64,000 nt of DNA from Paracoccus albicereus (lineage in GTDB: Bacteria > Pseudomonadota > Alphaproteobacteria > Rhodobacterales > Rhodobacteraceae): positions 248,001 through 312,000 of the forward strand of contig NZ_JAKZEU010000002.1 of the NCBI RefSeq assembly GCF_024359525.1, in the 5' to 3' direction. Positions 3,564-20,736 of this stretch are shown in pieces (position 1 is the stretch's first letter; the number at the start of each line of letters is the position of its first letter). The position numbers and the translations under genes were made by a program. The notes beneath the pieces were generated by a model, which did no database searches, had not been told where the DNA came from, and worked only from the letters and a program-made list of their open reading frames with translations.

Positions 3564-3586
3564 AAGGCGGCCTATTCGGCCGCCTT
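3564..3586 (-). terminator. Bidirectional terminator between codB and preA
   Basis: Perfect 9-bp arms AAGGCGGCC (3564-3572) and GGCCGCCTT (3578-3586) with a 5-base loop. The preA stop codon (3572-3574) lies at the junction of the arm and the loop, so the 3' end of preA also encodes half the stem. On the minus strand the stem is followed by TTTCC. It lies between convergent genes and could serve both. Confidence 0.65.
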
Positions 3587-4870
3587 GGCCATCGGGTTGT
3601 TCGGGTGCGTCGTCCAGTTGGCATAATCGCTGCGCCGCAGCCCCGTGCGCTTGTCCAACTCGCCCGGTGCCAGTTCGCGCATGGTGATGCAATTCTCGAC
3701 CGGGCAGACATCGAGGCAGAGGTTGCAGGCGACGCATTCTTCCTCGATCACCTCGAAGACGCGCCCGGGCTTCATCGCGATCGCCTGGTGGCTGGTGTCC
3801 TCGCAGGCGGCATAGCAGCGACCGCATTTGATGCACAGATCCTGGTCGATCACCGCCTTGGTGACGTAGTTCAGGTTCAACTGGTTCCAGTCGGTGACGT
3901 TCGGAACCGCACGGCCGATCAGGTCCGACAACGCCATGTCGTGGCTGTCGAGGTAGTCATGCAACCCGGTGATCATTTCCTGAACGACCTTGAAGCCGTA
4001 GGTCATCGCCGCCGTGCAGACCTGCACGTTGCCTGCGCCGAGCGCCATGAATTCAGCCGCGTCGCGCCACGTCGTCACACCCCCGATGCCGCTGATCGGT
4101 AAGCCGCGGGTTTCCACAGACCGCGCGATCTCGGCCACCATGTTCAGCGCGATCGGCTTGACCGCCGGGCCGCAATAGCCGCCATGCGCGCCCTTGCCAT
4201 CAATCGTGGGCTCCGGTGCAAACAGGTCCAGATCGACCGAGGTGATGGAGTTGATCGTGTTGATCAGGCTGACCGCGTCGGCGCCACCGCGCTTGGCCGC
4301 CTCGGCCGGCTTTCTCACGTCGGTGATGTTGGGTGTCAGCTTCACGATGCAGGGCATGCGCGAATACTGCTTTACCCATCGCGTGACCATCTCGATATAT
4401 TCGGGGACCTGACCGACCGCGCTGCCCATGCCGCGTTCCGACATGCCGTGGGGGCAGCCGAAGTTCAGCTCGACCCCGTCGGCACCGGTATCCTCGATCT
4501 GCTTGAGGATCGTGCGCCAGCTGTCTTCGTCGCACGGCACCATCAGGCTGATGACCAGCGCCCGATCGGGATAGTCGCGCTTGACCGCTTTGATCTCGCG
4601 CAGGTTCACCTCCAACGGACGGTCGGTGATCAACTCGATGTTGTTGATCCCCAGCACGCGACGATCCGCGCCGTGAATGACGCCGTAGCGCGGTCCGTTG
4701 ACGTTCACGACCGGCGGACCCTCGGCGCCGAGCGTCTTCCAGACGACGCCGCCCCAGCCGGCCTGGAACGCGCGACGGACGTTGTATTCCTTGTCCGTCG
4801 GCGGCGCCGAGGCCAGCCAGAACGGGTTCGGGGATTTGATCCCGACGAAGTTGCTGGAAAGATCAGCCAT
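3572..4870 (-). CDS. preA: NAD-dependent dihydropyrimidine dehydrogenase subunit PreA
   Basis: A 432-residue catalytic subunit that reduces uracil/thymine to the 5,6-dihydro form, working with PreT. The N-terminal two thirds is a dihydroorotate-dehydrogenase-like FMN barrel (SPNPFWLASAPP; active-site region NFGCPHGMSERGMG). The C-terminus has two 4Fe-4S ferredoxin motifs: CIKCGRCYAAC and CVACNLCLDVCP. I chose the ATG at 4868-4870 (MADLSSNF) because homologues begin there; an in-frame start at 4921 would overlap the upstream gene more. The start overlaps the stop of a glycosyltransferase gene by 8 bp, which is not a normal partner for preA. Confidence 0.95.
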   Translation of the reverse strand: MADLSSNFVGIKSPNPFWLASAPPTDKEYNVRRAFQAGWGGVVWKTLGAEGPPVVNVNGPRYGVIHGADRRVLGINNIELITDRPLEVNLREIKAVKRDYPDRALVISLMVPCDEDSWRTILKQIEDTGADGVELNFGCPHGMSERGMGSAVGQVPEYIEMVTRWVKQYSRMPCIVKLTPNITDVRKPAEAAKRGGADAVSLINTINSITSVDLDLFAPEPTIDGKGAHGGYCGPAVKPIALNMVAEIARSVETRGLPISGIGGVTTWRDAAEFMALGAGNVQVCTAAMTYGFKVVQEMITGLHDYLDSHDMALSDLIGRAVPNVTDWNQLNLNYVTKAVIDQDLCIKCGRCYAACEDTSHQAIAMKPGRVFEVIEEECVACNLCLDVCPVENCITMRELAPGELDKRTGLRRSDYANWTTHPNNPMAKAAE

Positions 4871-6062
4871 GGTTGCCTCGCCCTCGAGTGGTGGTCGTTG
4901 CCTGCTTCGTTTCGTATGCACCTAGCGAACACGATTTGACCCAATCGGTTGTGTTCTCGGGGTCGTCGAGAAAGCGGTCGATCAAGGTCAATCGCTCTAT
5001 CCCGAACTCCAACTCTTGCGCTTTCCGGATGCCGGCTTTTGAAATTGCAGCGTAACGGGACGGATCGGTCATGAGGCGATCGATTGCGCGCGCCAAATCG
5101 GCGGGCTGTGCAGCCCTGAAGATTTCGCACCCACCATCACTCAGGCGGTCAGCATAAGCGGGGTGGTCCGAAACAACGACAGGTGTACCTGATGACAGGC
5201 CTTCAAGAAGGACGTTGGGAAGACCCTCGGCATAATTGTGGCGTGACGGAACGACGACAAGATCGTGAGCGGCCATCGCAGCGCGAACCTCTCGATTCGG
5301 TCTCGACCCAAGAAATGTCACCCTGCCGCTGAGTCCGCGCTCTGATGCGGCTTGTCGCCAGCGCTGCACATCGCCGCCGCCAAAAAGATTCAGCCGAACT
5401 TCGTGATCCTTGAGTAATGCGATAGCATCGAGAAGGTCGCCTACGCCCTTCGCCTCTGAAAGAGTGCCTGCGTAGCAAATCCGCACTGGCGTGCCGGCGA
5501 CGTTTGATTTCGGCGCCTCTGAGGTGGGGACCGGAACATGGTCCCATGGGATGATCATGTCCGACGGCAACCCGAGCTCGTCACGCATGGAGCGCGATGC
5601 ATTTAGATTGTGGTTGCAATAACAGCGGGCGGGGCTGCTGCGCAGCACATGCGAAAGACGACGGTGACGCAAGCGTTGCCGCAATCCACCCTTTCCGAAA
5701 TGGTCGGCAAACAAGGGTAAGAGCGCCGCACCAGTAACACGCGCAGCAACGAGAAAGCTGCGAATGGGACTGCACAGGATCAAGTGTGTAACCTGGAATT
5801 CTTTTAATAAATTAATCGCTAACGTTTTTGGGATTTTGTGTCCCGCGGATTTGATAGCAGTTAGATTGGGGCCAAGCAGCGTTCTTTCACTTGAGCCTGA
5901 AATGGACAGGACTGTAACACGCGCTTTTTCTGCCAGTTTGATCGTATGCAGTACCGATAGCTTTTGATCGCGGAATGTCTCTTCCCCGCCTCGTTCAAAT
6001 CTTTCGTATGCCTCGGCGAAATCGCCGTACTGAACGTAGAGGATGCTCGGTATCGCGCGCAC
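4863..6062 (-). CDS. GT4-type glycosyltransferase inserted between preT and preA
   Basis: A 399-residue retaining glycosyltransferase of the GT-B fold. The C-terminal half has the family 4 pattern: VRICYAGTLSEAKGVGDLL, LNLFGGGD, VTFLGSRPN, and the nucleotide-sugar-binding EGLPNVLLEGLSSGTPVV with the E-x7-E pair. Such enzymes build capsule, exopolysaccharide or LPS glycans; donor and acceptor cannot be read. The GTG start (6060-6062) has a GAGG ribosome site and lies 9 bp after the preT stop; the TGA lies inside the preA start region. The base composition is clearly lower in GC than its neighbours (23 of 60 G+C at 5761-5820 against 39 of 60 at 4441-4500), suggesting recent acquisition. Confidence 0.88.
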   Translation of the reverse strand: MRAIPSILYVQYGDFAEAYERFERGGEETFRDQKLSVLHTIKLAEKARVTVLSISGSSERTLLGPNLTAIKSAGHKIPKTLAINLLKEFQVTHLILCSPIRSFLVAARVTGAALLPLFADHFGKGGLRQRLRHRRLSHVLRSSPARCYCNHNLNASRSMRDELGLPSDMIIPWDHVPVPTSEAPKSNVAGTPVRICYAGTLSEAKGVGDLLDAIALLKDHEVRLNLFGGGDVQRWRQAASERGLSGRVTFLGSRPNREVRAAMAAHDLVVVPSRHNYAEGLPNVLLEGLSSGTPVVVSDHPAYADRLSDGGCEIFRAAQPADLARAIDRLMTDPSRYAAISKAGIRKAQELEFGIERLTLIDRFLDDPENTTDWVKSCSLGAYETKQATTTTRGRGNHG

Positions 6063-6071
6063 TAATTCGCC

Positions 6072-7409
6072 TCAGTTTTTGGCATCAAGACGACGGTGAA
6101 TATCCTCCGCCGCGTCGCGCCCCTGGGCCACAGCCGTTACTGTCAGATCGTCGCCCCCTGTGGCGCAGTCGCCCCCCGCCCAGACTCCGTCGAGTGACGT
6201 ACGTCCTGCGTCGGACACCGCGATCTTCCCGCCGTCCAGAGCGATATCTTCGGGCGCGCCATCCAGCCGCTGGCCGATGGCGCGAAAGACCTGATCGGCC
6301 TTCAGCCGGAACCTCTCGCCCGTCGGCGTCAGGCCATGGGGGCCGTCGGTAAGATAGGCGAACTCGATCTCGGCCACGGCGCCGTTGCCGTGAACCGCGA
6401 CCGGTGCCGCGTTATGGATGATCCGCACGCCCGAGGATGTCGCATGGGCCTGCTCGTGCAGACTTGCCCCCATCCGATCCTGACCGCGGCGATAGACGAT
6501 CGTCACGGTCTCCGCCCCCAGCAGGCGCGCTTGCACGGCCGCGTCGACTGCCGTCATCCCGCCGCCGATCACGACGACATCGCGGCCGATGGGCAACGTG
6601 GACAAGTCAGTCGACTGACGGAGATCGCGGATGAAGGATACGGCGTCGGTGACGTGGTCGCGATCCTCGCCCGCGGCACGCAATGCGTTGACGCCGCCAA
6701 GACCCATCCCCAGGAAGACCGCGTCAAATTTCCCGCGCAACGCATCCAGCGTGATCTGCTGGCCCAGCCTCTGACCCTCGCGCAGCTCGATGCCGCCGAT
6801 GCCCATCAACCAGTCCACCTCGGCCTGCGCGAAGCCGTCGACCGTCTTGTAGCTTGCGATACCGTATTCGTTCAAACCGCCGGGCTTCTCGCGCGCCTCG
6901 AAAATCACCACGTCGTGGCCCTTGGCGGCGAGGCGGTGGGCCGCCGACAATCCCGCCGGACCTGCGCCAACCACGGCGACACGATTGCCGGTCGGTGCAC
7001 CGCGCTTGAACGGGTGGGGCGCGTCCAGCATCCCGTCGGTCGCATAACGTTGCAGCGCGCCGATCTCGACCGGCTTGCCCTCGGCATCCATCCGGACGCA
7101 GGCGCCTTCGCAGAGGTTTTCGGTCGGACAGACGCGCGCGCACATGCCGCCTAATATGTTCGCGTGAAAGATCGTCATCGCAGCCGCGTCGGGCGTGCCG
7201 GTCGCGATCTGGCGGATGAACAGCGGGATGTCGATCGCGGTCGGGCAGGCGGTGATGCAGGGGGCATCGTGGCAGAAATAGCAGCGATCGGCAGCGACCC
7301 GCGCTTCGTGCGGATCAAGCGGTGGGGCGACATCCGCGAAGTTGCGGACATAGTCTTCGGGGGTCAGGCGTCCGGGCACGACGCCCGGGGTCAGCTTAGC
7401 TTGGATCAT
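6072..7409 (-). CDS. preT: NAD-dependent dihydropyrimidine dehydrogenase subunit PreT
   Basis: A 445-residue electron-input subunit, homologous to the GltD/DPD N-terminal module. It has cysteine clusters for Fe-S centres (CYFCHDAPCITACPT and MCARVCPTENLCEGAC), an FAD site (RVAVVGAGPAGLSAAHRLA) and a second dinucleotide site (VVVIGGGMTAVDAA). It passes electrons from NADH to PreA. I chose ATG at 7407-7409 (MIQAKLTPG), preceded by AGGGAC; an earlier ATG at 7430 has no good ribosome site. In most related genomes preT and preA are adjacent, but here a glycosyltransferase separates them. Confidence 0.94.
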   Translation of the reverse strand: MIQAKLTPGVVPGRLTPEDYVRNFADVAPPLDPHEARVAADRCYFCHDAPCITACPTAIDIPLFIRQIATGTPDAAAMTIFHANILGGMCARVCPTENLCEGACVRMDAEGKPVEIGALQRYATDGMLDAPHPFKRGAPTGNRVAVVGAGPAGLSAAHRLAAKGHDVVIFEAREKPGGLNEYGIASYKTVDGFAQAEVDWLMGIGGIELREGQRLGQQITLDALRGKFDAVFLGMGLGGVNALRAAGEDRDHVTDAVSFIRDLRQSTDLSTLPIGRDVVVIGGGMTAVDAAVQARLLGAETVTIVYRRGQDRMGASLHEQAHATSSGVRIIHNAAPVAVHGNGAVAEIEFAYLTDGPHGLTPTGERFRLKADQVFRAIGQRLDGAPEDIALDGGKIAVSDAGRTSLDGVWAGGDCATGGDDLTVTAVAQGRDAAEDIHRRLDAKN

Positions 7410-7512
7410 CGCATGTCCCTGGCTTGGCAACCTTCATCATCACGCTGCCACACCTCAAAATTTTTATCAAATGGTTCAAGACTGGCGCGCAGCAGTCAAT
7501 CATGCCTGCCCG

Positions 7513-8802
7513 TCAGCCGGGCAGCCGCAGCACCGCCGACAACCCTCCGAGGTCCGACCGGTCCAATCGAAGCGCGCCACCGTTCAAGGCGGCGAGATCA
7601 GAGACGATGGCGAGGCCAAGTCCGGTGCCAGGCGGACCCTGTTCATCCAGACGCGCACCGCGCACGACGGCGCGCGCGGCATCGGTGGACTCCATGCCCG
7701 GGCCGTCATCCTCGATCACGATCTCGGTGCCGGGGCGAACGCTGATCCGCAAACGGGACCGTCCCCATTTGACCGCGTTCTCGGCGAGATTGCCGATCAT
7801 CTCTTCCAGATCCTGCCGCTCTCCTGCAAATCGGGCGGAGCTGGGGCAGATGACTTCGGGCACGATTGCCTTTTCCTCCATCGGACGGCGAAGGACCATC
7901 AGGATGTCGTCTATCACCGAACCGACAGGCGTCGATTGTCCCAGCACATGCGCCTGCGCGCTGCGCGCCCGCTTCAGGTGCCAGGCGATCAGGCGGTCCA
8001 TTCGCGCGATCAGGGCCTGACCGGCGTGATCCGAGGGCAGGTCGTTCGCGAGCGCCGCGAGCGGCGTTTTCAGCGAATGGGCAAGGTTTCCCAGATGCTG
8101 ACGGGATCGGGCCAACAGATCCGCGTTCTGGTCCAACGCGCCATTGATCTCGGTCACCAGCGGATCAAGCTCGCTGACACCGGGGCGGGGCAGGCGCGGC
8201 ATTTCGCCCGCTCGCACGCGGCGCAGATCGTCGCCCAAACGGCGCGTGCTGCCAAGGCCCGCGCCGACCTGAACGACGACCGCGATGGCAAGGCCGATTC
8301 CCAGCACCGCGAGCGAAATCGCGAGAGGCCGGCGAACCTGGGCTAGACTGCCCAGCACCTCGCGCGCGGGTGCCGTTACCAGAAATGAAAGATCGTCGTT
8401 GACGCCAGGAACCGTGAACCGTCCCGCCAGCACCCGCAGCGGTTCGCCCTGGGGTCCACGCCCGCGGCCACGTCGCAGCTCGCGTGGCGGCGCGCTGAGG
8501 GCCGCGTCGAAAAGCGACGGAGACTTGGCGATCGTCTCGCCATCCAGCCGCAACTGCCAGTACCAACCGGACAAGGGCAATGTGAACCGCGGGTCGGTCG
8601 GTGCAGTGTCCAGTTCCACCTCGCCATCGTCGACCTCGATTCCTGCAATCAGCGTGTCGGCCACCGCGCGCAGCTCGGCGTCGTATCGTTCAGACACGAA
8701 CCGGTCCAGAACCGCCCCGATGGCGAGGAAGGCGGCCAGCAGCGCAGCCGTGATCCAGATCGCGGCCAGCACCAGCATGCGGCCCCTGATCGAACGCATC
8801 AT
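7513..8802 (-). CDS. Sensor histidine kinase of the PepSY-linked two-component system
   Basis: A 429-residue membrane kinase. It has an N-terminal helix (about 7-31), a periplasmic sensor of about 120 residues, a second helix (about 158-182), a HAMP-like linker, and a HisKA domain with HSLKTPLAALAND (His242). The ATPase domain has NLAENAVKWG (N box), DDGPGM (G1) and GTGLGLAIV (G2). The PhoQ-like layout suggests sensing of a periplasmic signal such as cations or envelope stress. The ATG overlaps the stop of the regulator gene, so the two are cotranscribed. Confidence 0.92.
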   Translation of the reverse strand: MMRSIRGRMLVLAAIWITAALLAAFLAIGAVLDRFVSERYDAELRAVADTLIAGIEVDDGEVELDTAPTDPRFTLPLSGWYWQLRLDGETIAKSPSLFDAALSAPPRELRRGRGRGPQGEPLRVLAGRFTVPGVNDDLSFLVTAPAREVLGSLAQVRRPLAISLAVLGIGLAIAVVVQVGAGLGSTRRLGDDLRRVRAGEMPRLPRPGVSELDPLVTEINGALDQNADLLARSRQHLGNLAHSLKTPLAALANDLPSDHAGQALIARMDRLIAWHLKRARSAQAHVLGQSTPVGSVIDDILMVLRRPMEEKAIVPEVICPSSARFAGERQDLEEMIGNLAENAVKWGRSRLRISVRPGTEIVIEDDGPGMESTDAARAVVRGARLDEQGPPGTGLGLAIVSDLAALNGGALRLDRSDLGGLSAVLRLPG

Positions 8803-9464
8803 CGTGGTGCCGAGCGCAAAAGGTAGCCTTCGCCGCGTCGCGTTTCGATCACCCCGTCGCCGACCTTGCGGCGCAGCCGGCCGATCACAACCTCGATCGA
8901 CTTGAAATCGCGGTCGCTGTCGGCCTCGTAAAGATGCTCAGACAGTTCGGTCCGGCTCACGATCCGATCCTGGTGGTGGATCAGGTAGGTCAGGATCCGT
9001 GTCTCGAAGGCTGTCAACTTCAAGGGGGTGCCGTCGCGGGTAATGACCCCCAGTTGCGCGTCCAGCAGCAGCTTGCCCGCGCGGATCACGGGTCTGGCAT
9101 GGCCGGCCGCACGCCGGATCAGGGTCTGCGCACGCAGCACCACTTCGTCCAGACGGAAGGGCTTCACCGCGTAATCGTCGGCGCCGGCGCGAAAGCCCGC
9201 GACCTTGTCGGTCCAGTCGCCGCGCGCGGTCAGGATCAGCACGGGCATTGCAATCCCCTGATCGCGCCACCGCGTCAGCACGTCGATTCCCGGAAGGCCG
9301 GGCAGCCCGAGATCGAGGATGGCCACATCATAGGTTTCGGTTGCGCCCAGATACTCGCCTGCCTCACCATCAGGGGCGGTATCGGTGACGAACCCCGCAT
9401 CCTGCATCGCTGAAGCAAGCTGAGCGGCCAGGGTCTGGTCATCCTCGACGATCAGCGCCCTCAT
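8799..9464 (-). CDS. OmpR/PhoP-family response regulator
   Basis: A 221-residue regulator. The receiver domain has acidic residues EDD at 7-9, the phospho-acceptor Asp51 (VAILDLGLPG) and Lys in AVKPFRLDE. The C-terminal winged helix has LTAFETRILTYLI and SIEVVIGRLRRKVG. It overlaps the PepSY gene upstream (ATGA) and the kinase gene downstream, giving a three-gene operon. Likely targets are the operon itself or the divergent exported protein gene at 9896. Confidence 0.94.
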   Translation of the reverse strand: MRALIVEDDQTLAAQLASAMQDAGFVTDTAPDGEAGEYLGATETYDVAILDLGLPGLPGIDVLTRWRDQGIAMPVLILTARGDWTDKVAGFRAGADDYAVKPFRLDEVVLRAQTLIRRAAGHARPVIRAGKLLLDAQLGVITRDGTPLKLTAFETRILTYLIHHQDRIVSRTELSEHLYEADSDRDFKSIEVVIGRLRRKVGDGVIETRRGEGYLLRSAPR

Positions 9465-9760
9465 CGTTTCAGCGCCTCGATCTGGCCGGTGCCCGCGACC
9501 TCGAGAAAGCGGCCGCTGCGGGCGTCGATGCGGATCACCAGCAGGTTCTGAGCGGGCGTCAGCAGGCGAAGCTCTTCGACCAGAACCGCGCCCAGGCCGC
9601 GCTCGTGCGGGTTAGCCAGGGTCAGCCGCGCACCGATGAGCCGCCCGTGATAGCGTTCGGTCGCGATCCGCGCAGCCTCGTGCAAGGGTAACGGGCGGAA
9701 ATCGTCTGCCGATGCCGGTCCGGCGGTGGCGATCAAAAGGGCAAGAAGGGCGGCGCGCAT
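9461..9760 (-). CDS. Exported PepSY-domain small protein
   Basis: A 99-residue protein starting at ATG 9758-9760. It has a clear Sec signal peptide (MRAALLALLIATAGPASA, cleavage after ASA) followed by a single PepSY-like domain (LPLHEAARIATERYHGRLIGARL, VRIDARSGRFLEVAG). PepSY domains often inhibit proteases or act beside two-component sensors in the periplasm. Longer in-frame starts to 9889 would hide the signal peptide, so I reject them. It is the first gene of the PepSY-regulator-kinase operon. Confidence 0.8.
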   Translation of the reverse strand: MRAALLALLIATAGPASADDFRPLPLHEAARIATERYHGRLIGARLTLANPHERGLGAVLVEELRLLTPAQNLLVIRIDARSGRFLEVAGTGQIEALKR

Positions 9761-9895
9761 CAGGTCTTGTGACAGGACAAAGGTAAACGGAACCCAAACG
9801 GATCGTTGGCCTCCGGTTCGATCTCGTTTGGCTAGAAGCGATTCGTCAACCGGAGGCATCGGGCCGCCGGTGGGAAAGAAGAAAGGCATGACGCC

Positions 9896-10846
9896 ATGAG
9901 CAGAACCCTGAAAAGCACCGTCGCCGGACTAGCGCTGATCGCCGCGCTTGGCAGCGCGGCAGTGGCGCAGACGGCACCCACGCAGCCCACGGCACCGCAA
10001 CCGGGCGCAACGCAGCCCGAAGCTCAGCCTCCTGCGCCGGGCGCCCCTGACCGTGCGCTGCCACCTCCGCCGCCGCCCGCCGAGCCTGTCGTCGTGACCG
10101 AGGACACGCTGCCCGACGTGCTGAAGGCGCTGGATCTTCAGAACATCGATATCGACCGCGAGCGTCGCGGCAGCGAGGTCGAGGGCACGCTGCCAGACGG
10201 CACCGACATCGAGGCCAAGCTGGATGCGCGTGGTGCGCTGCGCGAGATCAGCGGCGACGACGATGCGGCCCTGCCGGCATCGGTCATCGAGGCGCTGGTT
10301 CCCCAGGCTGTCCGGGCTGCCGATCTGTTTGCCGAGTTCGCGGAGATCGATGAGATCGAGATGGCACCTGAAGACGGGCCCGTTCAGGATATGAAAATCT
10401 CCGGCCGCGACGGGCAGGGAGAGAAGTTGCGCGCCACCTTCGCCGAAGATGGCAGTCTGATGCGTTTCGGTCGCGGCGACGACGACGATCGTGGCAAGCG
10501 CGGCCCCAAGCATCGCGGGAAGCACGGCCCCGACCATGACCATCGTGACGCGCGTCGGGGCGATGACGGCCCGCGCGGAGAGGATGGACGCCGCGGTGGA
10601 CCCCGCTGGCAGGATATGCGGATGGAGGCGGGTCGTGCCGATCGCCCGGCGCCGGCGACAGACGCGCCACAGGCGGCTGCTCCGGCGGCGGCAATGACGG
10701 TGTTGACCGATGCCGGCTACACCGATCTGGGAAATGTCCGGCAGGACGGCCCGCGTGTGATGGTCGATGCGACGAACGCCGCCGGCGAGCCGGTCACGGT
10801 GGAACTGGGTCCGCGCGGCGACGTGGTGCGCGAAACCGCGCGCTGA
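9896..10846 (+). CDS. Exported Pro-rich and His/Asp/Arg-rich protein with two PepSY-like regions
   Basis: A 316-residue protein of no recognised family. It has a signal peptide (about 1-24, ending AAVAQ), a Pro/Ala/Gln-rich linker (25-65), and a folded segment with PepSY-like character (about 66-190: DLQNIDIDRERRGSEVEGTL). A highly charged low-complexity stretch of about 60 residues rich in Asp, Arg, His and Gly follows (around 195-250), then a second Pro/Ala linker and a C-terminal PepSY-like strand pattern (VTVELGPRGDVVRE). It is divergent from the PepSY-regulator-kinase operon, so it may be a regulon member. The charged stretch could bind metal or polyanions; that is inference. Confidence 0.75.
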   Translation: MSRTLKSTVAGLALIAALGSAAVAQTAPTQPTAPQPGATQPEAQPPAPGAPDRALPPPPPPAEPVVVTEDTLPDVLKALDLQNIDIDRERRGSEVEGTLPDGTDIEAKLDARGALREISGDDDAALPASVIEALVPQAVRAADLFAEFAEIDEIEMAPEDGPVQDMKISGRDGQGEKLRATFAEDGSLMRFGRGDDDDRGKRGPKHRGKHGPDHDHRDARRGDDGPRGEDGRRGGPRWQDMRMEAGRADRPAPATDAPQAAAPAAAMTVLTDAGYTDLGNVRQDGPRVMVDATNAAGEPVTVELGPRGDVVRETAR

Positions 10847-10866
10847 GGGCGCGGCTTACAATGAGG

Positions 10867-10889
10867 AAGGGGCCGCGATGCGGCCCCTT
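10867..10889 (+). terminator. Bidirectional intrinsic terminator
   Basis: Perfect 10-bp stem AAGGGGCCGC (10867-10876) / GCGGCCCCTT (10880-10889) with a 3-base loop, between the convergent exported-protein gene and the ABC substrate-binding gene. The arms begin with AA and end with TT, so a short T-run is present on both strands. Confidence 0.85.
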
Positions 10890-10913
10890 CTGCGTCTTTG
10901 CGATGTCCTCGCG

Positions 10914-11906
10914 TCACTGGGCCAATGCGGCATCCGTGACGTCGTGGGTCCAGGCGCCCTCCGGCTCCTTCGTGATCGCCGGGTTCTCGGGCGAGATCGC
11001 TGACAGCAACGTCGCGACGGTCTCTTCGTAAGCGGCCTCGTCCAGCGTGCCGTCCGAACCGGCGGTCAGCTTGGCGACTTCACCCATCATGTATTGCTGG
11101 TGCTCCAGCGTTTGCGCGCCGGTCTCATCGTTGTCGATGACGATCTGGGCGGCCTCGTCCGGGTTCTCCTCGGCATATTTCCAGCCCTTCATGCTGGCGC
11201 GCACGAAGCGGGCCAGCTTGTCGACCATCTCCGGATCCTCGAGGCTGGACTCGACGACGTATAGACCGTCTTCCAGCATCCCTACGCCTTCCTCGAGATA
11301 GTTGAACGTGGTCAGCTGATCAGGCGTGATGCCGGCGTCCAGCACCTGTCCGTATTCGTTGTACGTCATGACAGAGATGCAATCGGCCTGCTTCTGCAGC
11401 AGCGGATCGACGTTGAAGCCCTGCTTCAGCACGGTCACGCCGTCCTCGCCGCCTTCGGTCGGCACGCCCAGCTTCGCCATCCAGGCGTAGAACGGATATT
11501 CGTTCCCGTAGAACCAGACCCCCAACGTGTGGCCGGGAAAATCGTCCGGTGTCTCGATTCCGGTTTCCTTCAGGCAGGTCAGTTGCAAGCCGCCCTGCTT
11601 GAAGGGCTGGGCGATGTTGACCAGCGGAAGGCCCTTTTCGCGTGCGGCCAGTGCCGCGGCCATCCAGTCCACGATCACGTCGGCGCCGCCGCCCGCGATC
11701 ACCTGCTCGGGCGCGATGTCGGGACCGCCGGGCTTTATGGTGACGTTGAGGTCTTCCTCTTCGTAAAAGCCCTTGTCGAGTGCGACGTAATAGCCCGCGA
11801 ACTGCGCCTGCGTGACCCATTTGAGCTGCAGCGTCAGGTCGTCGGCCGCATGCGCGGCCCCCGCCAGCATCGTCGTGGTGGCCAGGCCGAGCATCATTGT
11901 CTTCAT
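10914..11906 (-). CDS. ABC transporter substrate-binding protein, NMT1/THI5-like (pyrimidine-type)
   Basis: A 330-residue periplasmic binding protein with a signal peptide (MKTMMLGLATTTMLAGAAHA). The mature start (DDLTLQLKWVTQAQFAGYYVALDKGFY) is typical of the NMT1/THI5 fold, which binds pyrimidine-like or thiamine-precursor ligands. I chose ATG 11904-11906 because GGGAG lies 6 bases before it, whereas it abuts the alternative ATG at 11912. Its position in the pyrimidine-degradation operon suggests uracil, thymine or dihydropyrimidine uptake. Confidence 0.88.
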   Translation of the reverse strand: MKTMMLGLATTTMLAGAAHAADDLTLQLKWVTQAQFAGYYVALDKGFYEEEDLNVTIKPGGPDIAPEQVIAGGGADVIVDWMAAALAAREKGLPLVNIAQPFKQGGLQLTCLKETGIETPDDFPGHTLGVWFYGNEYPFYAWMAKLGVPTEGGEDGVTVLKQGFNVDPLLQKQADCISVMTYNEYGQVLDAGITPDQLTTFNYLEEGVGMLEDGLYVVESSLEDPEMVDKLARFVRASMKGWKYAEENPDEAAQIVIDNDETGAQTLEHQQYMMGEVAKLTAGSDGTLDEAAYEETVATLLSAISPENPAITKEPEGAWTHDVTDAALAQ

Positions 11907-11929
11907 CGTCATCTCCCTGTTGCTTGTTC

Positions 11930-12766
11930 TTATGTGCGTCGCGACGGGTGCCAGAAGGTCACGCGTCGTTCGACAAGCGCCACTATGCCATAAAACAGCG
12001 ATCCGGCGATCGCGGCCACGACAATTTCTGCCCAGACAAGCGGCAGATCAAGCTGACCCACCGCGGTCGAGATGCGGAAACCCATCCCATGCGTCGGACT
12101 GCCGAAAAACTCGGCAACGATGGCGCCGATCAGGGCGAGCGTGGTGGTGATCTTCAGACCGTTGAACAGGAACGGCATCGCGGCGGGCAAGCGCAGTTTC
12201 AGCAGCGATTGCCAGTAGCCCGCGCTCCACGTCGCCATCTGGTCGCGCTGCAGCGCGTTGGTGTCGGCGAGGCCCGCGATCATGTTCACCAAGACCGGGA
12301 AGAACACCATAACCACGACGACCGCTGCCTTGGATTGCCAGTCGAAGCCGAACCACATCACCAGGATCGGCGCGATGCCGACGATCGGCAGAGCGGCGAC
12401 GAAGTTGCCGACGGGCAGCAGCCCGCGCTGCAGGAACGGGCTGCGGTCGATCAGGATCGCAACGATGACGGCAGCGCCCGCGCCCATGATCCAGCCGCTC
12501 AGCGCGCCCTTGAGGATGGTCTGCACGAAGTCGCCCCACAGCAGACGTGGGTGGTCGGCAATGCTGTCGGCGATCTGGCTCGGCGCGGGCAGGATGACCG
12601 AGGGCACATCGTAGAGCCGGACGATCATCTCCCACAGGATCAGCATCGTCAGGCCGAAGATGAGCGCGACGAGGAAGCGGGTGGCGCGGGTGTCGAACCG
12701 GGCGAGCCAGGCATTCAGTCCCCAGGTCCCCAGCCACAGAGCAAGGATCGGTACTGCGTTCGTCAT
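11930..12766 (-). CDS. ABC transporter permease 2, BPD inner-membrane component
   Basis: A 278-residue permease of the SsuC/TauC type with about six helices. The EAA loop is recognisable near GYWQSLLKLRLPAAMPFLFNG. It pairs with the permease upstream, overlapping it by ATGA, and with the NMT1-like binding protein 23 bp downstream. Together with the ATPase they form one importer for a pyrimidine-type substrate. Confidence 0.88.
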   Translation of the reverse strand: MTNAVPILALWLGTWGLNAWLARFDTRATRFLVALIFGLTMLILWEMIVRLYDVPSVILPAPSQIADSIADHPRLLWGDFVQTILKGALSGWIMGAGAAVIVAILIDRSPFLQRGLLPVGNFVAALPIVGIAPILVMWFGFDWQSKAAVVVVMVFFPVLVNMIAGLADTNALQRDQMATWSAGYWQSLLKLRLPAAMPFLFNGLKITTTLALIGAIVAEFFGSPTHGMGFRISTAVGQLDLPLVWAEIVVAAIAGSLFYGIVALVERRVTFWHPSRRT

Positions 12767-13626
12767 CGCGCTAGCCCCATGCGGCGCAGCGTGATCCGTT
12801 CAACAAGCGCCACGGCGGCAACAAGAATTGCGGCCAAGGCGGCGGCGGTGAACAAAGCGGACCAGATCTGGATGGTCTGGCCGTAATAGCTTCCCGACAG
12901 CAGACGTGCGCCGAGGCCCGAGGTTGCGCCAGCAGGCAGTTCACCCACGATGGCGCCCACGAGGCTTGCGGCGATCGCGACCTTCAGCGACGCGAACAGA
13001 TACGGCATTGCCGAGGGCAGCCGCAGCCGCCAGAAGATCTGCGCGCGGCTGGCGCTCCACGACCGCATCAGGTCAAGCTGCATCGCATCGGGCGTTCGCA
13101 GGCCTTTCACCATCCCCACGAGCACCGGAAAGAACGACAGCCAGGCCGAGATGATCGCCTTGGGCAGCAGCCCGGTCACGCCCGCGCTGGCAAAGACCAC
13201 GATCACCATCGGCGCGATGGCGAGGATGGGCACGGTCTGGCTGGCCACAGCCCAGGGCATCACCGACTGGTCCATCGCGCGGTCGTGGACGATGCCGATG
13301 GCCAGCAAAATCCCCGCCGCGCTCCCGATGCCGAAGCCCGCGAGCGTCGCGGCCAGCGTCACCCAGCCGTGCCAGACGAGGCTTCTTTTCGAGGTGATGG
13401 CCTGACCGGCGAGCCCGTCCCACAGGCCGACCGCAACCTGATGCGGCGTCGGCAGGACGGGGCGGTCCTGTGTCATCGTGTCCGCGATCAGAGCCTGCGT
13501 CGAGAGCTCGGTTCCCGCCCGAGCGGCCTGATCCTGCGCCCACTGCGCATTCATCCCAATCGCGGCGAGATACCAGATCACGACGATCGCAAGCAGCACG
13601 GTCAGGATCGGCGCCGCGCGGCTCAT
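12763..13626 (-). CDS. ABC transporter permease 1, BPD inner-membrane component
   Basis: A 287-residue permease. An N-terminal membrane helix (about 5-24) is followed by a periplasmic segment, then about five more helices. The EAA-type loop is ASRAQIFWRLRLPSAMPYLFAS. Its sequence differs enough from the second permease to suggest a heterodimeric channel. The ATG overlaps the GNAT stop and the TGA overlaps the next permease start. Confidence 0.88.
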   Translation of the reverse strand: MSRAAPILTVLLAIVVIWYLAAIGMNAQWAQDQAARAGTELSTQALIADTMTQDRPVLPTPHQVAVGLWDGLAGQAITSKRSLVWHGWVTLAATLAGFGIGSAAGILLAIGIVHDRAMDQSVMPWAVASQTVPILAIAPMVIVVFASAGVTGLLPKAIISAWLSFFPVLVGMVKGLRTPDAMQLDLMRSWSASRAQIFWRLRLPSAMPYLFASLKVAIAASLVGAIVGELPAGATSGLGARLLSGSYYGQTIQIWSALFTAAALAAILVAAVALVERITLRRMGLAR

Positions 13627-14057
13627 GCGGCGGTCCAGACATATTCGATGTCGGGCAGTCGCTCGGCGTTGTCGATGCTGCGGCGCGCGGGCAGGAAACC
13701 CTCGCGTTCATAAAACCGCCGCGCCGGGCGATTGGCGGCAAAGGTCCAAAGCGTCAGCCGCTCGCGTTCCTTCCTCGCCCGGTCAAGCAGCGCCGCGCCG
13801 GTGCCGTGGCCGGTCGAGGCGACAAACAGCGATGTGACCTCATTCCCGTCGAGCGACAGGAAACCCGCGACCTCGCCGGCGCATTCCGCGATCATGGTCC
13901 CGCATTGACGCTCGCGGCATCGTGCGACGATCTCCGCCCGGGTATGGATGCGGGGCATCCAGCCGGTCGCCTCGACCCACTCGTTCACGATGGTCGCGCA
14001 GGGGATCGCATCGAAAGCACGCGCCGGACGTAATGTCAGCTCAGGCTTCATCGGCAT
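13623..14057 (-). CDS. GNAT-family N-acetyltransferase within the pyrimidine ABC operon
   Basis: A 144-residue acetyltransferase of the GCN5 fold. It has the acetyl-CoA-binding strand and loop (VTSLFVASTGHGTGAALLDRA) and the C-terminal NRPARRFYEREGFLPARR signature. The substrate is unknown. It overlaps the end of the ATPase gene upstream and the start of a permease gene downstream, so it is coexpressed with the importer. A role in the pathway, such as acetylating an amino intermediate, is only conjecture. An internal ATG at 14051 is an equally good start. Confidence 0.82.
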   Translation of the reverse strand: MPMKPELTLRPARAFDAIPCATIVNEWVEATGWMPRIHTRAEIVARCRERQCGTMIAECAGEVAGFLSLDGNEVTSLFVASTGHGTGAALLDRARKERERLTLWTFAANRPARRFYEREGFLPARRSIDNAERLPDIEYVWTAA

Positions 14058-14742
14058 GTCCCGCGCGCAGCCCCTCGCGCACGCGATGCGCGATGGCGAT
14101 GAATTCGGGCGTGTCGCGGATGTCGAGCGGCCGCTCGCGTGGCAGGGTGCTTTCGATCACGTCGGTGATCCGGCCCGGACGTGGAGACATCACGACGATG
14201 CGGGTGGACAGATACACCGCCTCGGGGATTGAGTGGGTGACGAAGCCGATCGTCTTTCCGGTCTTGGCCCACAGGTCCAGCAGCGCTTCGTTCAGACGGT
14301 CGCGCACGATCTCGTCGAGCGCGCCGAACGGCTCGTCCATCAGCAGGATGTCGGCGTCGAAGGCCAGCGCGCGGGCGATCGAGGCGCGCTGCTGCATGCC
14401 TCCTGACAGCTGCCACGGATACTTGCCGCCGAAGCCGTCGAGTTCGACGAGGCCCAGCACACGCTCCACCCGCTCGCGCCGGTCGGCCTTGGAAAATCCC
14501 ATGATCTCCAGCGGCAGCGCGATATTGCCAGCGATGGTCCGCCACGGATAAAGGCCGGGCGCCTGGAAGACGTAGCCGTAGGCGCGGGCGCGGCGCGCCT
14601 GATCCGGGGTCATGCCGTTGACCGTCAGGGAGCCCCCGGTCGGCGTCTCCAGCGCGGCGATGGCCCGCAGGAAGGTCGTCTTTCCGCAACCGGACGGGCC
14701 GATGAAGCTGACGAACTCACCGCGATTGATGGTGAGGTCCAC
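14041..14742 (-). CDS. ABC transporter ATPase (SsuB/TauB type) with abnormal 5' end
   Basis: The ATPase of the importer. It shows Walker A GPSGCGKTT, signature LSGGMQQRASIARAL, and Walker B LLMDEPFGALDE. The only standard start codon in frame before Walker A is the GTG at 14740-14742, which leaves only about 11 residues before it. Yet the frame stays open upstream to a TGA and encodes the usual first strands (SSVITADAVDLTFQT, GPVHALKGVDL) with no ATG, GTG or TTG. An ATT at 14851-14853 preceded by GGAGAG is the only possible start for the full domain. Either the gene uses a rare start, or the N-terminus was damaged when the small membrane-protein gene arrived next door. Confidence 0.85.
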   Translation of the reverse strand: MDLTINRGEFVSFIGPSGCGKTTFLRAIAALETPTGGSLTVNGMTPDQARRARAYGYVFQAPGLYPWRTIAGNIALPLEIMGFSKADRRERVERVLGLVELDGFGGKYPWQLSGGMQQRASIARALAFDADILLMDEPFGALDEIVRDRLNEALLDLWAKTGKTIGFVTHSIPEAVYLSTRIVVMSPRPGRITDVIESTLPRERPLDIRDTPEFIAIAHRVREGLRAGHADEA

Positions 14743-14845
14743 GCCTTTGAGAGCATGGACCGGGCCGTCGGCGGTCTGGAAGGTGAGGTCGACGGCGTCC
14801 GCAGTAATGACGCTAGACTGCGTCGCAGACTGATGAGATTTGAGG

Positions 14846-15202
14846 CTATGAATTGGTCATCTCTCCGGAACGTCTCGGCCAGTAGTGCCACACAAGTAGC
14901 AGGCAGCCTAAGATCAACGCGGGACCGAGTAAGTAAATATAGAGACGGTCTAACATGCCGCCGGCACCGTCGCAGTTGAAGATCATTTGGCCCTCGCCCC
15001 CCGAACCCGGTTCGGGTGGAGCGAAGACAGGAGCTTTGGCGCAGAAGACCATTCCGCGCAGAATGCTTTGCAGGAAATAGAGCGAAGTTCCAAAGCCGAT
15101 GAAGAGCGCAACATTGACGTGAAGCCAGCGCCTAGATGCCCACATCATCCCCCAAACAAAACCCAGAATGAGCGATAGCATAACCGCCAACGTCAGAATC
15201 AT
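14846..15202 (-). CDS. Small three-helix membrane protein of unknown function, lower GC
   Basis: A 118-residue hydrophobic protein with helices at about 2-22 (ILTLAVMLSLILGFVWGMMW), 28-47 (VNVALFIGFGTSLYFLQSI) and about 88-108 (LYIYLLGPALILGCLLLVWHY). Between the last two is a loop with two cysteines that may be extracytoplasmic (CAKAPVFAPPEPGSGG, FNCDGAGG). I recognise no family. A TTG at 15218-15220 with GGGAG upstream is an alternative start. It fills the gap between dihydropyrimidinase and the ABC ATPase. GC is lower than its neighbours (29 of 60 at 14881-14940). Confidence 0.6.
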   Translation of the reverse strand: MILTLAVMLSLILGFVWGMMWASRRWLHVNVALFIGFGTSLYFLQSILRGMVFCAKAPVFAPPEPGSGGEGQMIFNCDGAGGMLDRLYIYLLGPALILGCLLLVWHYWPRRSGEMTNS

Positions 15203-15225
15203 GCCAAGCGTCAAAGACAAGGGCG

Positions 15226-16677
15226 TTACACTCCCGTTGCCGGGATCCCTGACCGTTCCACCGGTCGCGGTGCCGTCAGTTCCTTCCACTGCGACAGCGC
15301 GCGGTTCACCGTTCCGCGCGGCTCGCGTGCCACGAATTCGCCGTGGCCCTCGCGGCTGTCCATCTTTCCCTCGGTCACCGCGACGACGCCGCGGGTGATC
15401 GTGTAGCGCGGCAGGCCCTTCACCTTCTTGCCCTCGAACACGTTGTAGTCGATCGCCGATTGCTGGCTGCCGGCGGTGATGGTCTTTTCCGCCTCGGGGT
15501 CCCAGACCACCAGATCGGCGTCGCTGCCGACCAGCACCGCGCCCTTCTTCGGATACAGGTTCAGGATCTTCGCGATGTTGGTCGAGGTGACGGCGACGAA
15601 TTCGTTCGGCGTCAGACGGCCCGTGTTCACGCCCTCGGTCCAGAGCATCGGCATCCGATCCTCGAGACCCCCGGTCCCGTTCGGGATCTTGGTGAAATCG
15701 CCGATGCCATACCGCTTCTGTTCCGTGGTGAAGGCGCAATGGTCCGTGGCGACGACCGACAGGCTGCCCGCTTGCAGCCCGTTCCACAGGCTTTCCTGAT
15801 GCTGCTTGTTGCGGAAGGGAGGCGACATCACCCGGCGCGCGGCGTGGTCCCAGTCGGCGTTGAAATACTCGCTTTCGTCCAGCGTCAGGTGCTGGATCAG
15901 CGGCTCGCCCCAGACTCGCTTGCCCTGCTGGCGGGCGCGGCGGATCGCCTCGTGGCTGTCCTCACACGACACGTGGACAACATACAACGGTACGCCCGCC
16001 ATGTCCGCCACCATGATCGCGCGGTTCGTCGCCTCGCCCTCGACCTGCGGGGGGCGAGAATAGGCGTGGGCCTCGGGGCCGGTATTGCCCTCGGCCAGCA
16101 GGCGCGCGGACAGCTCGGCCACCACGTCGCCATTCTCGGCATGGACCATCGCGATCCCGCCCAAATCCCCGACACGGCGGAACGATGCGAACAACTCGTC
16201 ATCGTTGACCATCAATGCGCCCTTGTAGGCCATGAAATGCTTGAAGCTGGTGATGCCGCGATCGACCACCGCCTTCATCTCGTCGAAGACCTGCTCACCC
16301 CACCAGGTCACCGCCATGTGGTAGGAATAGTCGCAATGCGCGCGGCCGGACTTGTTGTCCCACATCTGCAGCGCATCGAGCAGCCCCTGGCCGGGCGAGG
16401 GCAGGGCGAAATCGACCACCATCGTCGTGCCGCCCGACAGCGCGGAGCGGGTCCCCGACTCGAAGTCATCGGTCGAATAGGTACCCATGAAGGGCATCTC
16501 CAGATGCGTGTGCGGATCGATCCCGCCCGGCATCACGTAGCACCCGGTCGCGTCGAGTTCGGTATTGCCGGTCAGGTTGTCCCCGATCGCCGCGATCCGG
16601 CCATTTTCGATCAGCACGTCCGCCTTGTAGGTCAGATCCGCCGTGACGATGGTCCCGTTCCTGATGATCGTCGACAT
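15226..16677 (-). CDS. hydA: Dihydropyrimidinase / D-hydantoinase
   Basis: A 483-residue amidohydrolase that opens dihydrouracil to N-carbamoyl-beta-alanine. It shows the metal-binding GGIDPHTHLEMPFMG, the carboxylated-lysine motif FKHFMAYKG, a histidine-bearing LYVVHVSCED strand and VATDHCAFT, in the usual order. I chose ATG 16675-16677 (MSTIIRNG) with GAGG upstream. It lies between two lower-GC genes, the sulfotransferase 31 bp upstream and the small membrane protein downstream; in relatives the hyuC and hydA genes are usually neighbours. Confidence 0.94.
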   Translation of the reverse strand: MSTIIRNGTIVTADLTYKADVLIENGRIAAIGDNLTGNTELDATGCYVMPGGIDPHTHLEMPFMGTYSTDDFESGTRSALSGGTTMVVDFALPSPGQGLLDALQMWDNKSGRAHCDYSYHMAVTWWGEQVFDEMKAVVDRGITSFKHFMAYKGALMVNDDELFASFRRVGDLGGIAMVHAENGDVVAELSARLLAEGNTGPEAHAYSRPPQVEGEATNRAIMVADMAGVPLYVVHVSCEDSHEAIRRARQQGKRVWGEPLIQHLTLDESEYFNADWDHAARRVMSPPFRNKQHQESLWNGLQAGSLSVVATDHCAFTTEQKRYGIGDFTKIPNGTGGLEDRMPMLWTEGVNTGRLTPNEFVAVTSTNIAKILNLYPKKGAVLVGSDADLVVWDPEAEKTITAGSQQSAIDYNVFEGKKVKGLPRYTITRGVVAVTEGKMDSREGHGEFVAREPRGTVNRALSQWKELTAPRPVERSGIPATGV

Positions 16678-16708
16678 TCCTGTTCCTCTCAATATGGCTT
16701 CTAGTTCG

Positions 16709-17710
16709 TCACACCGTATCCGCCACTACGTAACCTAGCGATTTAAGGTCGATACCAGACATCTTCGCAAACCGGGCATTTGAAAGGGCGTAGTAATCAC
16801 CAACCAAGGCATCAACAATATTCTTCTGATTTCTTTTACCTTTCTCGCGAGCCCAAGTCGGTGTGAGCCGATCAACTTGGTATGCTATCGAATTAGGAGA
16901 AAATTTGCTCGGTTTCATCAAATGACGGCTGTCCTGCGGAACCAGTCCATTCATCCTGCGTAAAACGCGGCGGGCCCATTCCGACATCGCAGGCCTTACT
17001 GTTCGCTCAGTTGTCGTCGCGGCTGGTAACGTCAACTTACTCGAAAATGTTCTGTTGACCCGGTCCACAAGACCCCAGGGATCAGCCAATGTCCATAACA
17101 TCGGCGCAACGATCACCTTATTTGCACCAAACAGACTTTCATAAAACGTTTGAGTTCGATCGTACTCGTAGTAGGAAAAATCGAGCGTTGGCTCAAGACT
17201 TGGGTTGGGTGACTCGCGGTTCAAAAACTGTTCTAGGGTCGAACTATAACCGTAACGCAGATACTCTCCATAAAGCGAACTTAAGAGCGCGCGTTGTTCA
17301 CGGACGGTCACCAAGATGGTAGCATTTGGAAATGCAGCATGAAGGCGATGCGCAGCAATCTCCCTATAGTACTTCTGATGAAACGCACGCCCGCCGAGTG
17401 CTTCGTCCGAAATAACAAGTGGTTTTCCTTGAGAGCGTGCTTGATGAAGTAACCCACCATATTGCTCACGAACGATATCCAGCGTGAAGGATGCGGCCGG
17501 TTGAATAAGGAAAGCCTTGTGACTGGGCTCATGGCTCGGCTCGAATATGATCTCATTCGATTTGCCGAACAATTCTCTCTGTAGCCAGGTGGTGCCGGTT
17601 TTGTGTACGCCGACGTGAATAAGCACGTCGACGCCCTCTGCCTCTGGAAGTCCCTTAAGGCTATCAATTGAAGTGACTGCAGCGAGCGCGTCGCGACTAT
17701 GGGTATTCAC
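16709..17710 (-). CDS. Sulfotransferase-like protein inserted between hyuC and hydA
   Basis: A 333-residue protein with the PAPS 5'-phosphosulfate loop near the N-terminus (DVLIHVGVHKTGTTWLQREL, about residues 28-47) and a 3'-phosphate-binding region (ILVTVREQRALLSSLYGEYL). It probably sulfates a carbohydrate or other envelope molecule; the acceptor is unknown. The GTG start (17708-17710) overlaps the hyuC stop as GTGA, and GGAGG inside hyuC serves as ribosome site. G+C is low (27 of 60 at 16741-16800). An apparent 5' extension to 17827 would lie within hyuC and is rejected. Confidence 0.85.
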   Translation of the reverse strand: MNTHSRDALAAVTSIDSLKGLPEAEGVDVLIHVGVHKTGTTWLQRELFGKSNEIIFEPSHEPSHKAFLIQPAASFTLDIVREQYGGLLHQARSQGKPLVISDEALGGRAFHQKYYREIAAHRLHAAFPNATILVTVREQRALLSSLYGEYLRYGYSSTLEQFLNRESPNPSLEPTLDFSYYEYDRTQTFYESLFGANKVIVAPMLWTLADPWGLVDRVNRTFSSKLTLPAATTTERTVRPAMSEWARRVLRRMNGLVPQDSRHLMKPSKFSPNSIAYQVDRLTPTWAREKGKRNQKNIVDALVGDYYALSNARFAKMSGIDLKSLGYVVADTV

Positions 17711-18957
17711 TGATCGACCTCCGCCACCTTCAGCACCGCGTGCAGCAGCACGTCGGCCCCCGCGGATGCCCATTGTGGACTGATCTCTTCGGCCTCGTTG
17801 TGGGATAGCCCGTCCACGCACGGGCACATGATCATCACCGTTGGCGCGATGCGGTTGATCCAGCAGGCGTCGTGGCCGGCCCCGGACACGATGTCCATGT
17901 GGCTGTAGCCCAGACGTTCGGCGGCATCGCGAACGACGGTGACAAGGTTTTCATCGAAGGTCACCGGATCGAAATGGCCGACCGGCTCGATCTCGATGCC
18001 GAGGCCGAGTTCCTTCGCGATCTCAGCCGCCTCCGTTTCCAGCCTCGACCGCATCGAGGTCAGCTTGTCCAATTCCGGGCTGCGGAAGTCGATGGTGAAG
18101 ACCGCCTTTCCGGGGATCACGTTGCGGCTGTTCGGATAGACGTTGGCCTGGCCGATCGCGCCGACGGCATTAGGCTGATGGTCCATCGCGATCCGGTGGA
18201 CGGCCTCGGTGATCCGCGCCATGCCCAGACCCGCGTTGACGCGCATCGTCATCGGGGTCGATCCGGTATGGGCGTCCTTCCCGGTCAGCGTGACCTGTAG
18301 CCACCACAGGCCCTGGCCGTGTGTGACGACGCCGATTTCCTTCCCCTCGGCTTCCAGAATCGGACCCTGTTCGATGTGGTATTCGAACATGGCATGGATC
18401 GGTCGATTGCCGACATCCTCGGTGCCACGCCAGCCGATACGCTCCAACTCGTCGCCGAAACGCTTGCCCTCGGCGTCGGTGCGTGCGTTCGCGAAATCCT
18501 CGTCATGCATCCCGGCGAAGACCCCGGATGCCAGCATGGCGGGCGCAAAGCGCGTTCCTTCCTCGTTGGTCCAGTTGACCACCACGATGGGTCGGCGCGT
18601 CTTCAGACCCATGTCCTTGATCGAGCGCACGACCTCGAGCCCCGCCAGCACGCCGAGCACACCGTCGTACTTGCCACCTGTGGGCTGGGTGTCCAGATGG
18701 CTTCCGATCCAGACCGGGTCGAGCGACGGGTCCTCGCCCTCGAAGCGCATGAACATGTTGCCCATCCGGTCGACGGCCATGGTCATCCCTTCGGCCTCGC
18801 ACCAGGACTGGAACAGGCGTCGACCTTCGGCATCGGCGTCGGTCAGGGTCTGGCGGTTGTTGCCGCCGGCCATTCCCGGGCCGATCTTGGCCATTTCCAT
18901 CAGGCTGTCCCATAGCCGGTCCGGATCGGTCTTCATGTTGCCGGCCTGTGCCGTCAT
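17707..18957 (-). CDS. hyuC: N-carbamoyl-beta-alanine amidohydrolase (M20 hydantoinase/carbamoylase family)
   Basis: A 416-residue zinc hydrolase that splits N-carbamoyl-beta-alanine into beta-alanine, CO2 and ammonia. It has the M20 metal-ligand motifs WIGSHLDTQPTGGKYDGVLG, NEEGTRFAPAM and HIEQGPIL, and the dimerisation domain with GKDAHTGSTPMTMR. Family length is about 410-420. The ATG at 18955-18957 has AGGAAGGA upstream; a second ATG lies at 18936. It sits in order after the BauA and BauB genes in the reductive pyrimidine pathway. Confidence 0.93.
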   Translation of the reverse strand: MTAQAGNMKTDPDRLWDSLMEMAKIGPGMAGGNNRQTLTDADAEGRRLFQSWCEAEGMTMAVDRMGNMFMRFEGEDPSLDPVWIGSHLDTQPTGGKYDGVLGVLAGLEVVRSIKDMGLKTRRPIVVVNWTNEEGTRFAPAMLASGVFAGMHDEDFANARTDAEGKRFGDELERIGWRGTEDVGNRPIHAMFEYHIEQGPILEAEGKEIGVVTHGQGLWWLQVTLTGKDAHTGSTPMTMRVNAGLGMARITEAVHRIAMDHQPNAVGAIGQANVYPNSRNVIPGKAVFTIDFRSPELDKLTSMRSRLETEAAEIAKELGLGIEIEPVGHFDPVTFDENLVTVVRDAAERLGYSHMDIVSGAGHDACWINRIAPTVMIMCPCVDGLSHNEAEEISPQWASAGADVLLHAVLKVAEVDQ

Positions 18958-20641: not shown

Positions 20642-20657
20642 TTGACCAACCGGTCAG
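20642..20657. promoter_or_regulatory. RutR operator between bauA and rutR
   Basis: The 16-base TTGACCAACCGGTCAG matches the known RutR consensus TTGACCAnnTGGTCAA at 12 of 14 defined positions. It lies 18 bp before the bauA start and 79 bp before rutR. For the bauA side, a promoter can be read on the minus strand: TTGACT (20689-20684), 16 bp, TAGCGT (20667-20662). The operator would cover the start site, as expected for a repressor released by uracil. Confidence 0.85.
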
Positions 20658-20689: not shown

Positions 20690-20736
20690 GCGGCGCCGCC
20701 TGCTGACTTTCGCACGTTTCGGTGGCAAGAGAAATC

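Follow-up and report, generated by a model that had tools for sequence, protein, structure and literature searches.

Three low-GC genes in a pyrimidine-catabolism locus

Within a 64,000-nucleotide stretch of the Paracoccus albicereus genome (contig NZ_JAKZEU010000002.1; the whole stretch is hereafter called the window), a locus for pyrimidine catabolism carries three genes of unusual base composition between its host genes. A GT4-type glycosyltransferase gene (GT, 4863..6062) lies between preT (6072..7412; Fer4_20 and Pyr_redox_2, named from its position next to preA) and preA (3572..4870; NF006183, 713 bits, cut-off 335). A sulfotransferase-like gene (ST, 16709..17710) is found between the genes for an M20 amidase of the hydantoinase/carbamoylase family (17707..18957; TIGR01879, 395 bits, cut-off 204) and dihydropyrimidinase (DHP, 15226..16677; TIGR02033, 602 bits), and a gene for a small membrane-type protein (SMP, 14846..15220, its membrane nature judged by eye) sits between DHP and an ABC ATPase gene (14041..14808). 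These are followed by a GNAT gene at the junction of the ABC ATPase and the first permease (13623..14057) and by two permease genes and a gene for an NMT1-type binding protein (10914..13626), which supply control junctions, while the first gene of the operon encodes an omega-aminotransferase (19298..20623; NF052567, 761 bits). GT, ST and SMP are all on the minus strand, as is the operon.

The preliminary description of this stretch had singled out the three genes as lower in GC and placed at gene junctions on the coding strand, and full-length calculation bears this out. GC content and GC content at third codon positions (GC3) are 0.557 and 0.573 for GT, 0.499 and 0.497 for ST, and 0.539 and 0.648 for SMP, compared with 0.631-0.697 and 0.751-0.872 in the 16 other tabulated genes (187 to 20623) and a window GC of 0.647. 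The fit to the junctions is tight. ST has a GTG start at 17710 that overlaps the M20 stop, and its end leaves 31 bp before the DHP ATG; SMP has a TTG start at 15220, 5 bp past the DHP stop (a database copy begins at a later ATG and has 118 amino acids); GT begins 9 bp past the stop of preT and shares 8 bp with the beginning of preA. The GT and ST junctions are about 10.6 kb apart. The GNAT gene, of native composition, is a fourth variable junction gene.

Signs of mobility are sparse. The window contains no tRNA gene and no Rfam match at gathering score, and no recombinase was found among the 20 window proteins scanned with Pfam. Repeats near the inserts are short, the longest being a 23-nt direct pair (78%) and a 21-nt inverted pair (81%); a 13-nt direct pair (12 of 13) flanks ST, its copies lying within the coding ends of M20 and DHP, and may be a chance occurrence. 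A search for the marks of a genomic island, transposon or integron (recombinase gene, att site, terminal repeats) returned short repeats only, and promoter and terminator scans gave signal at shuffle level. With short repeats only, no recombinase among those 20 proteins and no tRNA gene in the window, we rejected a mobile-element origin.

Occupancy of the junctions in relatives

Orthologous loci were compared in two samples. The genus sample comprises 101 genomes including this one, 70 of which have a DHP orthologue of at least 73% (two in pieces), and gap counts were made on 40 loci plus one more (L082), i.e., 41 relatives. The family sample comprises 83 genomes with a DHP match of at least 77% over nearly full length, of which 79 were used and gave 80 loci including an extra one (L080). 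A junction was scored as occupied when the gap between adjacent locus genes exceeded 200 bp, in counts that ignore shared ancestry.

In the genus, gaps of this size occur at M20/DHP in 5 of 41 loci, at DHP/ABC in 17 of 41, at the junction of the ABC ATPase and the first permease (ABC/permA) in 10 of 41 and at preT/preA in 4 of 19. The host genes are adjacent, with gaps of at most 200 bp, in 36/41 loci at M20/DHP, 24/41 at DHP/ABC and 15/19 at preT/preA. Occupancy exceeds chance, since none of the 124 control junctions of the same locus is filled (0/41 between the two permeases, 0/41 between the second permease and the binding protein, and 0/14 each for small frame/response regulator, response regulator/histidine kinase and histidine kinase/preT). 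Coding frames were called within the large genus gaps in 4 cases at M20/DHP, 11 at DHP/ABC, 5 at ABC/permA and 4 at preT/preA. Across 78 loci of the family, large gaps were counted at M20/DHP in 49/76, at DHP/ABC in 35/76, at ABC/permA in 31/75 and at preT/preA in 9/45.

The genes that fill the junctions differ among relatives, which agrees with the earlier suggestion that the locus is a favoured landing site. A total of 138 frames were called in the family loci; Pfam was run on one representative of some clusters and others were labelled by eye. At M20/DHP we found GIY-YIG proteins (10), a family of about 105 amino acids without a Pfam match (12), lipoprotein-like frames, class II aldolases (5, one of them a fragment) and acyltransferases (2). 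A 312-amino-acid occupant of this junction (L091) had the look of a glycosyltransferase; lacking a Pfam match, it was left out of the counts. Occupants of DHP/ABC include glyoxalase-like proteins (10), SDR enzymes (8), antisense cupin-like frames (4) and small membrane proteins, and those of ABC/permA are GNAT (12) and EamA-like proteins (7, the representative scoring under the Pfam cut-off). As the same occupants recur at given junctions, many are probably old residents.

The clearest junction is preT/preA. Its occupants in the family include methyltransferase-like (L064, L133), glyoxalase-like and DedA-like frames. Within the genus, one genome (G214, locus L183) carries a different GT4 gene there (Glyco_trans_1_4, 52.2 bits), another (L188) a methyltransferase gene, L201 a similar frame, and G129 (locus L204) a sulfotransferase gene, open from 8848 to 9777, of 309 amino acids (39.6 bits on the C-terminal 179), whose product is not significantly similar to ST (best E 0.6). 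The order preT-GT4-preA is also seen in another genus (G027), where the GT4 gene overlaps preA by 4 bp. The GT4 proteins of the three genomes align over their C-terminal part only (E 4e-6 for GT against that of G214 and 4e-12 against that of G027). A full-length GT relative of about 36-38% identity in G018 lies 27 bp upstream of M20, another junction of the same locus. Past preA, L204 has a second sulfotransferase-like gene split over two frames (11260-12070), followed by a tRNA gene (12202-12275), and L191 has a tRNA gene (17035-17108) 12 bp past preA.

A dispersed palindrome, approximately CCGGGGGCNNTGCCCCCGGACCCCCGGGATATTT, was observed inside the operon at M20/DHP among loci L166-L205 and L057-L136, in 25 of 42 genus loci (the window is not among them) and in 17 of 80 family loci. 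Copy number varied from 0 to 22 per genome in 13 genus genomes, this genome having none at up to two mismatches and the window likewise none; no Rfam match was obtained in the loci scanned. It could be read, together with the tRNA genes near preA in L191 and L204 and the 13-nt pair around ST, as the trace of a cryptic mobile element or a site-specific hot spot that puts genes at the junctions. We consider such a device highly improbable: the palindrome lies mostly at empty M20/DHP sites and in a single orientation, other receptive junctions have almost none (one ABC/permA case), and the 20 window proteins yielded no recombinase. As an insertion signal the palindrome was rejected because it is kept at M20/DHP and nearly absent from other junctions.

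Relationship between GT and ST

GT scores 97.7 bits with Glycos_transf_1 (cut-off 26.4), above the Pfam gathering score for a GT4 glycosyltransferase. ST stays under the one for a PAPS-dependent sulfotransferase (Sulfotransfer_3, 21.7 bits, cut-off 27), and a 42% relative (L275) reaches 40.3 bits with the same family. In its structural model (predicted local distance difference test, pLDDT, 90.9) ST has the fold of a sulfotransferase: all nine Foldseek matches at E ≤0.001 are sulfotransferases (template modelling score, TM, 0.30-0.47 over the query), and a profile match to 3rnl was obtained. The conserved residues agree with this assignment, H32, G34, H36, K37, T38, R137 and S145 being invariant in 28 sequences; we take them to be cofactor-loop residues.

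ST is rare, with matches in 9 of 120 family genomes and 7 of 125 genus genomes (best other in the genus 31%), this one included in both, and a whole-genome search returned a single ST match here. GT-type matches are found in 102 of 120 family genomes including this one; among the matches listed for this genome there is no second full-length GT, the next being partial (E 4e-12). We scanned named genomes with 28 ST relatives and sought GT relatives within 8 kb or to the contig end, which gave 80 loci. The two closest ST relatives among them both have a strong GT relative nearby. In a Gemmobacter nectariphilus metagenome-assembled genome (L275), ST (42%) and GT (40%, E 2e-75) relatives overlap by 4 bp, and in Rhodovulum robiginosum (L276) the two (36% and 45%, E 2e-87) are about 4-5 kb apart. 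In a third case, the family genome G080 (L080), a GT relative (44%) adjoins two ST relatives. All of these lie among polysaccharide genes, and a pair of database proteins (P0017 and P0065), both listed on a contig of length 15063, may represent a fourth case. This pattern suggests that GT and ST are partners.

This genome has an exosortase-type polysaccharide cluster of its own about 21 kb outside the window (approximately C12:206.6-226.7 kb, the right limit set by eye). It resembles the clusters of Rhodovulum robiginosum and Gemmobacter nectariphilus, with related ATPase, chain-length, flippase, exosortase and transferase genes, and nine genes of those two clusters match best within it (41-68% identity). 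The same GT and ST types occur in all three genomes; however, in those relatives they lie inside the cluster, whereas here they lie outside, 26 and 38 kb from it. Whole-genome searches found neither GT nor ST in the cluster of this genome, and the best matches here for the GT and ST relatives from those clusters are in the pyrimidine locus. Given also the single ST and the lack of a second full-length GT among the matches listed, the pair is located outside its usual surroundings.

SMP behaves differently. It has no Pfam match, one other protein in the database resembles it (53%), and it occurs in 3 of 120 family genomes including this one. Its relatives in G020 (50%) and G050 (28%), which are of two other genera, lie directly after DHP, i.e., at the same junction. 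We therefore rejected SMP as a member of a set with GT and ST; judged by these positions, it appears to be a separate passenger belonging to the DHP junction. Of the single envelope-modification set proposed earlier, the partnership of GT and ST stands, with G018 and G077 as exceptions, and the inclusion of SMP does not. Next to SMP, the ABC ATPase gene has lost its canonical start codon (14742-14850, minus strand): no in-frame ATG, GTG or TTG precedes the conserved N-terminus, 41 of 41 genus relatives have a start codon there, and the end of SMP holds an ATG that is off the reading frame by one base. The cause may be damage to the gene, an error in sequencing or the use of a rare start codon.

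We hold, with moderate confidence, that the junctions of the pyrimidine locus gain and lose passengers, and that GT and ST are a split polysaccharide-modifying pair and SMP a separate passenger. The locus would be an established operon pair in the family whose junctions repeatedly acquire and lose single genes, most likely by ordinary recombination. Passengers would be kept when they are codirectional and leave the host genes intact, lying after the stop of one and ahead of the start of the next, and could then be transcribed and translated along with the host genes. GT and ST, two halves of a pair placed here in two junctions of the locus, probably add sugar to and sulfate an exopolysaccharide from the exosortase-type cluster 26 kb away. 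Composition, positions, the variation of junctions in relatives, the joint occurrence of GT and ST in three genomes and the nearby cluster lacking them are observations, whereas co-expression, sulfation, its substrate, the function of the pair and the route of arrival are inferred.

Several observations weigh against this view. No more than 24 of the 36 large genus gaps gave a coding frame; the codon-based caller overlooks low-GC genes, GT and ST included, and for this reason large gaps and not called genes were counted. The gap counts are uncorrected for common ancestry, the permease-side controls are not fully empty family-wide (5/75 and 1/74), and recurrent occupants (SDR, glyoxalase-like, GNAT and GIY-YIG) could be long-standing residents that many lineages have lost. 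Regarding the pair, 78 of the 80 named ST loci have no strong GT relative (5 weak, 73 none), though the STs of these are at most 34% identical, and GT and ST stand together in only three genomes with context. G077 (GT relative 40%) and G018 have a GT relative and no ST match, and we rated the passenger reading lower on that account.

These exceptions also favour ordinary operon turnover, in which any moderately expressed operon of the family would pick up genes this often, and the arrival of GT and ST, functionally unlinked, would be a matter of chance. Portions of two papers already describe gene insertion into operons (PMC5399355, PMC10138114), GT-type proteins are common (102/120), and our outside controls are two operons only (hut and ure). 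In 30 genus loci each, however, these controls show gaps of at most 166 bp, save one of 242 bp at hutU, whose neighbours differ in arrangement among loci, and one of 568 bp at ureC, where a frame of about 185 amino acids seen in others went uncalled. The empty same-locus controls (0/124) and the rarity of ST (9/120), whose three closest relatives of known context are accompanied by relatives of this GT, speak in the same direction, and we regard turnover alone as doubtful but a real possibility.

That new genes are gained inside existing operons is reportedly the message of 'The life-cycle of operons' by Price et al. from 2006, which PMC10138114 cites. By that account, foreign or lineage-specific genes lie codirectionally between conserved operon genes, as they do here; what differs is that here a single locus shows repeated variation, with unrelated genes, at four of its junctions, and that two of these junctions divide a pair between them. 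Gene gain inside operons is known, and the repeated use of several junctions and the split GT/ST pair set this case apart. The nuo cluster of this bacterial group contains unidentified reading frames, on which our literature search gave no confirmation. Within the listed titles and the beginnings of abstracts, nothing was found on passenger genes in this pyrimidine locus. Polysaccharide genes away from a cluster are described for Sphingomonas sanxanigenens NX02 in part of PMC5399355; there they scatter genome-wide, whereas here two likely partners occupy junctions of one catabolic locus. With empty and filled junctions in more than 100 related loci, the locus offers a countable system for where and why new single genes settle. 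If a cell-surface pathway can rely on genes placed inside an unrelated metabolic operon, as this case suggests, annotation based on clusters would overlook them.

Regulation and need for the pathway

A RutR-like regulator gene (20722..21354, plus strand) diverges from the operon. Its product scores below both curated cut-offs (TIGR03613, 236.2 bits, cut-off 368; NF011584, 207.9 bits, cut-off 230) and may nevertheless work like RutR. A RutR-like palindrome (20642..20657, no strand assigned), with two mismatches to the RutR consensus used here, precedes the aminotransferase operon that includes ST and SMP. Scanning with this consensus, which may not suit this taxon, gave four matches at up to three mismatches compared with 1.05 expected, and no site was found before preT-GT-preA. 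RutR motifs are taxon-specific, according to part of PMC5343134, and so the missing site before preT is weak evidence.

The regulator and its candidate site gave some reason for the earlier proposal that pyrimidine supply, through RutR, switches on GT, ST and SMP as one envelope set. We find such a circuit very unlikely. The one candidate site stands before the ST/SMP operon only, SMP is apart from GT and ST in other genomes, and the regulator is also present in L057, L077, L183 and L204, all without this ST; joint RutR control of the three genes was set aside as not supported.

All of the 101 genus genomes searched lack panD (PF02261), a search that was positive in 8 of 14 control genomes. 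Given this absence, the pyrimidine pathway may double as a source of beta-alanine, and a basal level of expression would then be favoured. In Rhizobium etli, beta-alanine derives from a uracil-degradation amidase (part of PMC7142369, where a table lists Paracoccus and Rhodobacter); as here, panD is missing and a pyrimidine-route amidase present, although the case of R. etli was tested with mutants and ours is known from gene inventory. Some 31 of the 101 genus genomes are without this DHP, so the locus is not needed everywhere. It is tempting, if rather unlikely in our judgement, to see the locus as an expression dock. The pathway would always have to run at some level, as without panD it may supply beta-alanine for coenzyme A, and its junctions would give steady, translation-coupled expression; unrelated surface-modifying enzymes would have docked independently in several lineages, here as a split sulfated-polysaccharide pair. 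If selection favours the steady production of surface enzymes, this may account for the series of glycosyl-, sulfo-, acyl- and methyltransferases.

Two minor features complete the layout. A cupin-like small frame, recognised by eye, lies on the minus strand between the aminotransferase and M20 genes. A plus-strand gene separates the gene for the binding protein from the group of response regulator, histidine kinase, preT, GT and preA; a small frame, then the response regulator and the histidine kinase (together 7513-9889), lie upstream of preT, an arrangement that recurs in 14 of 41 genus loci.

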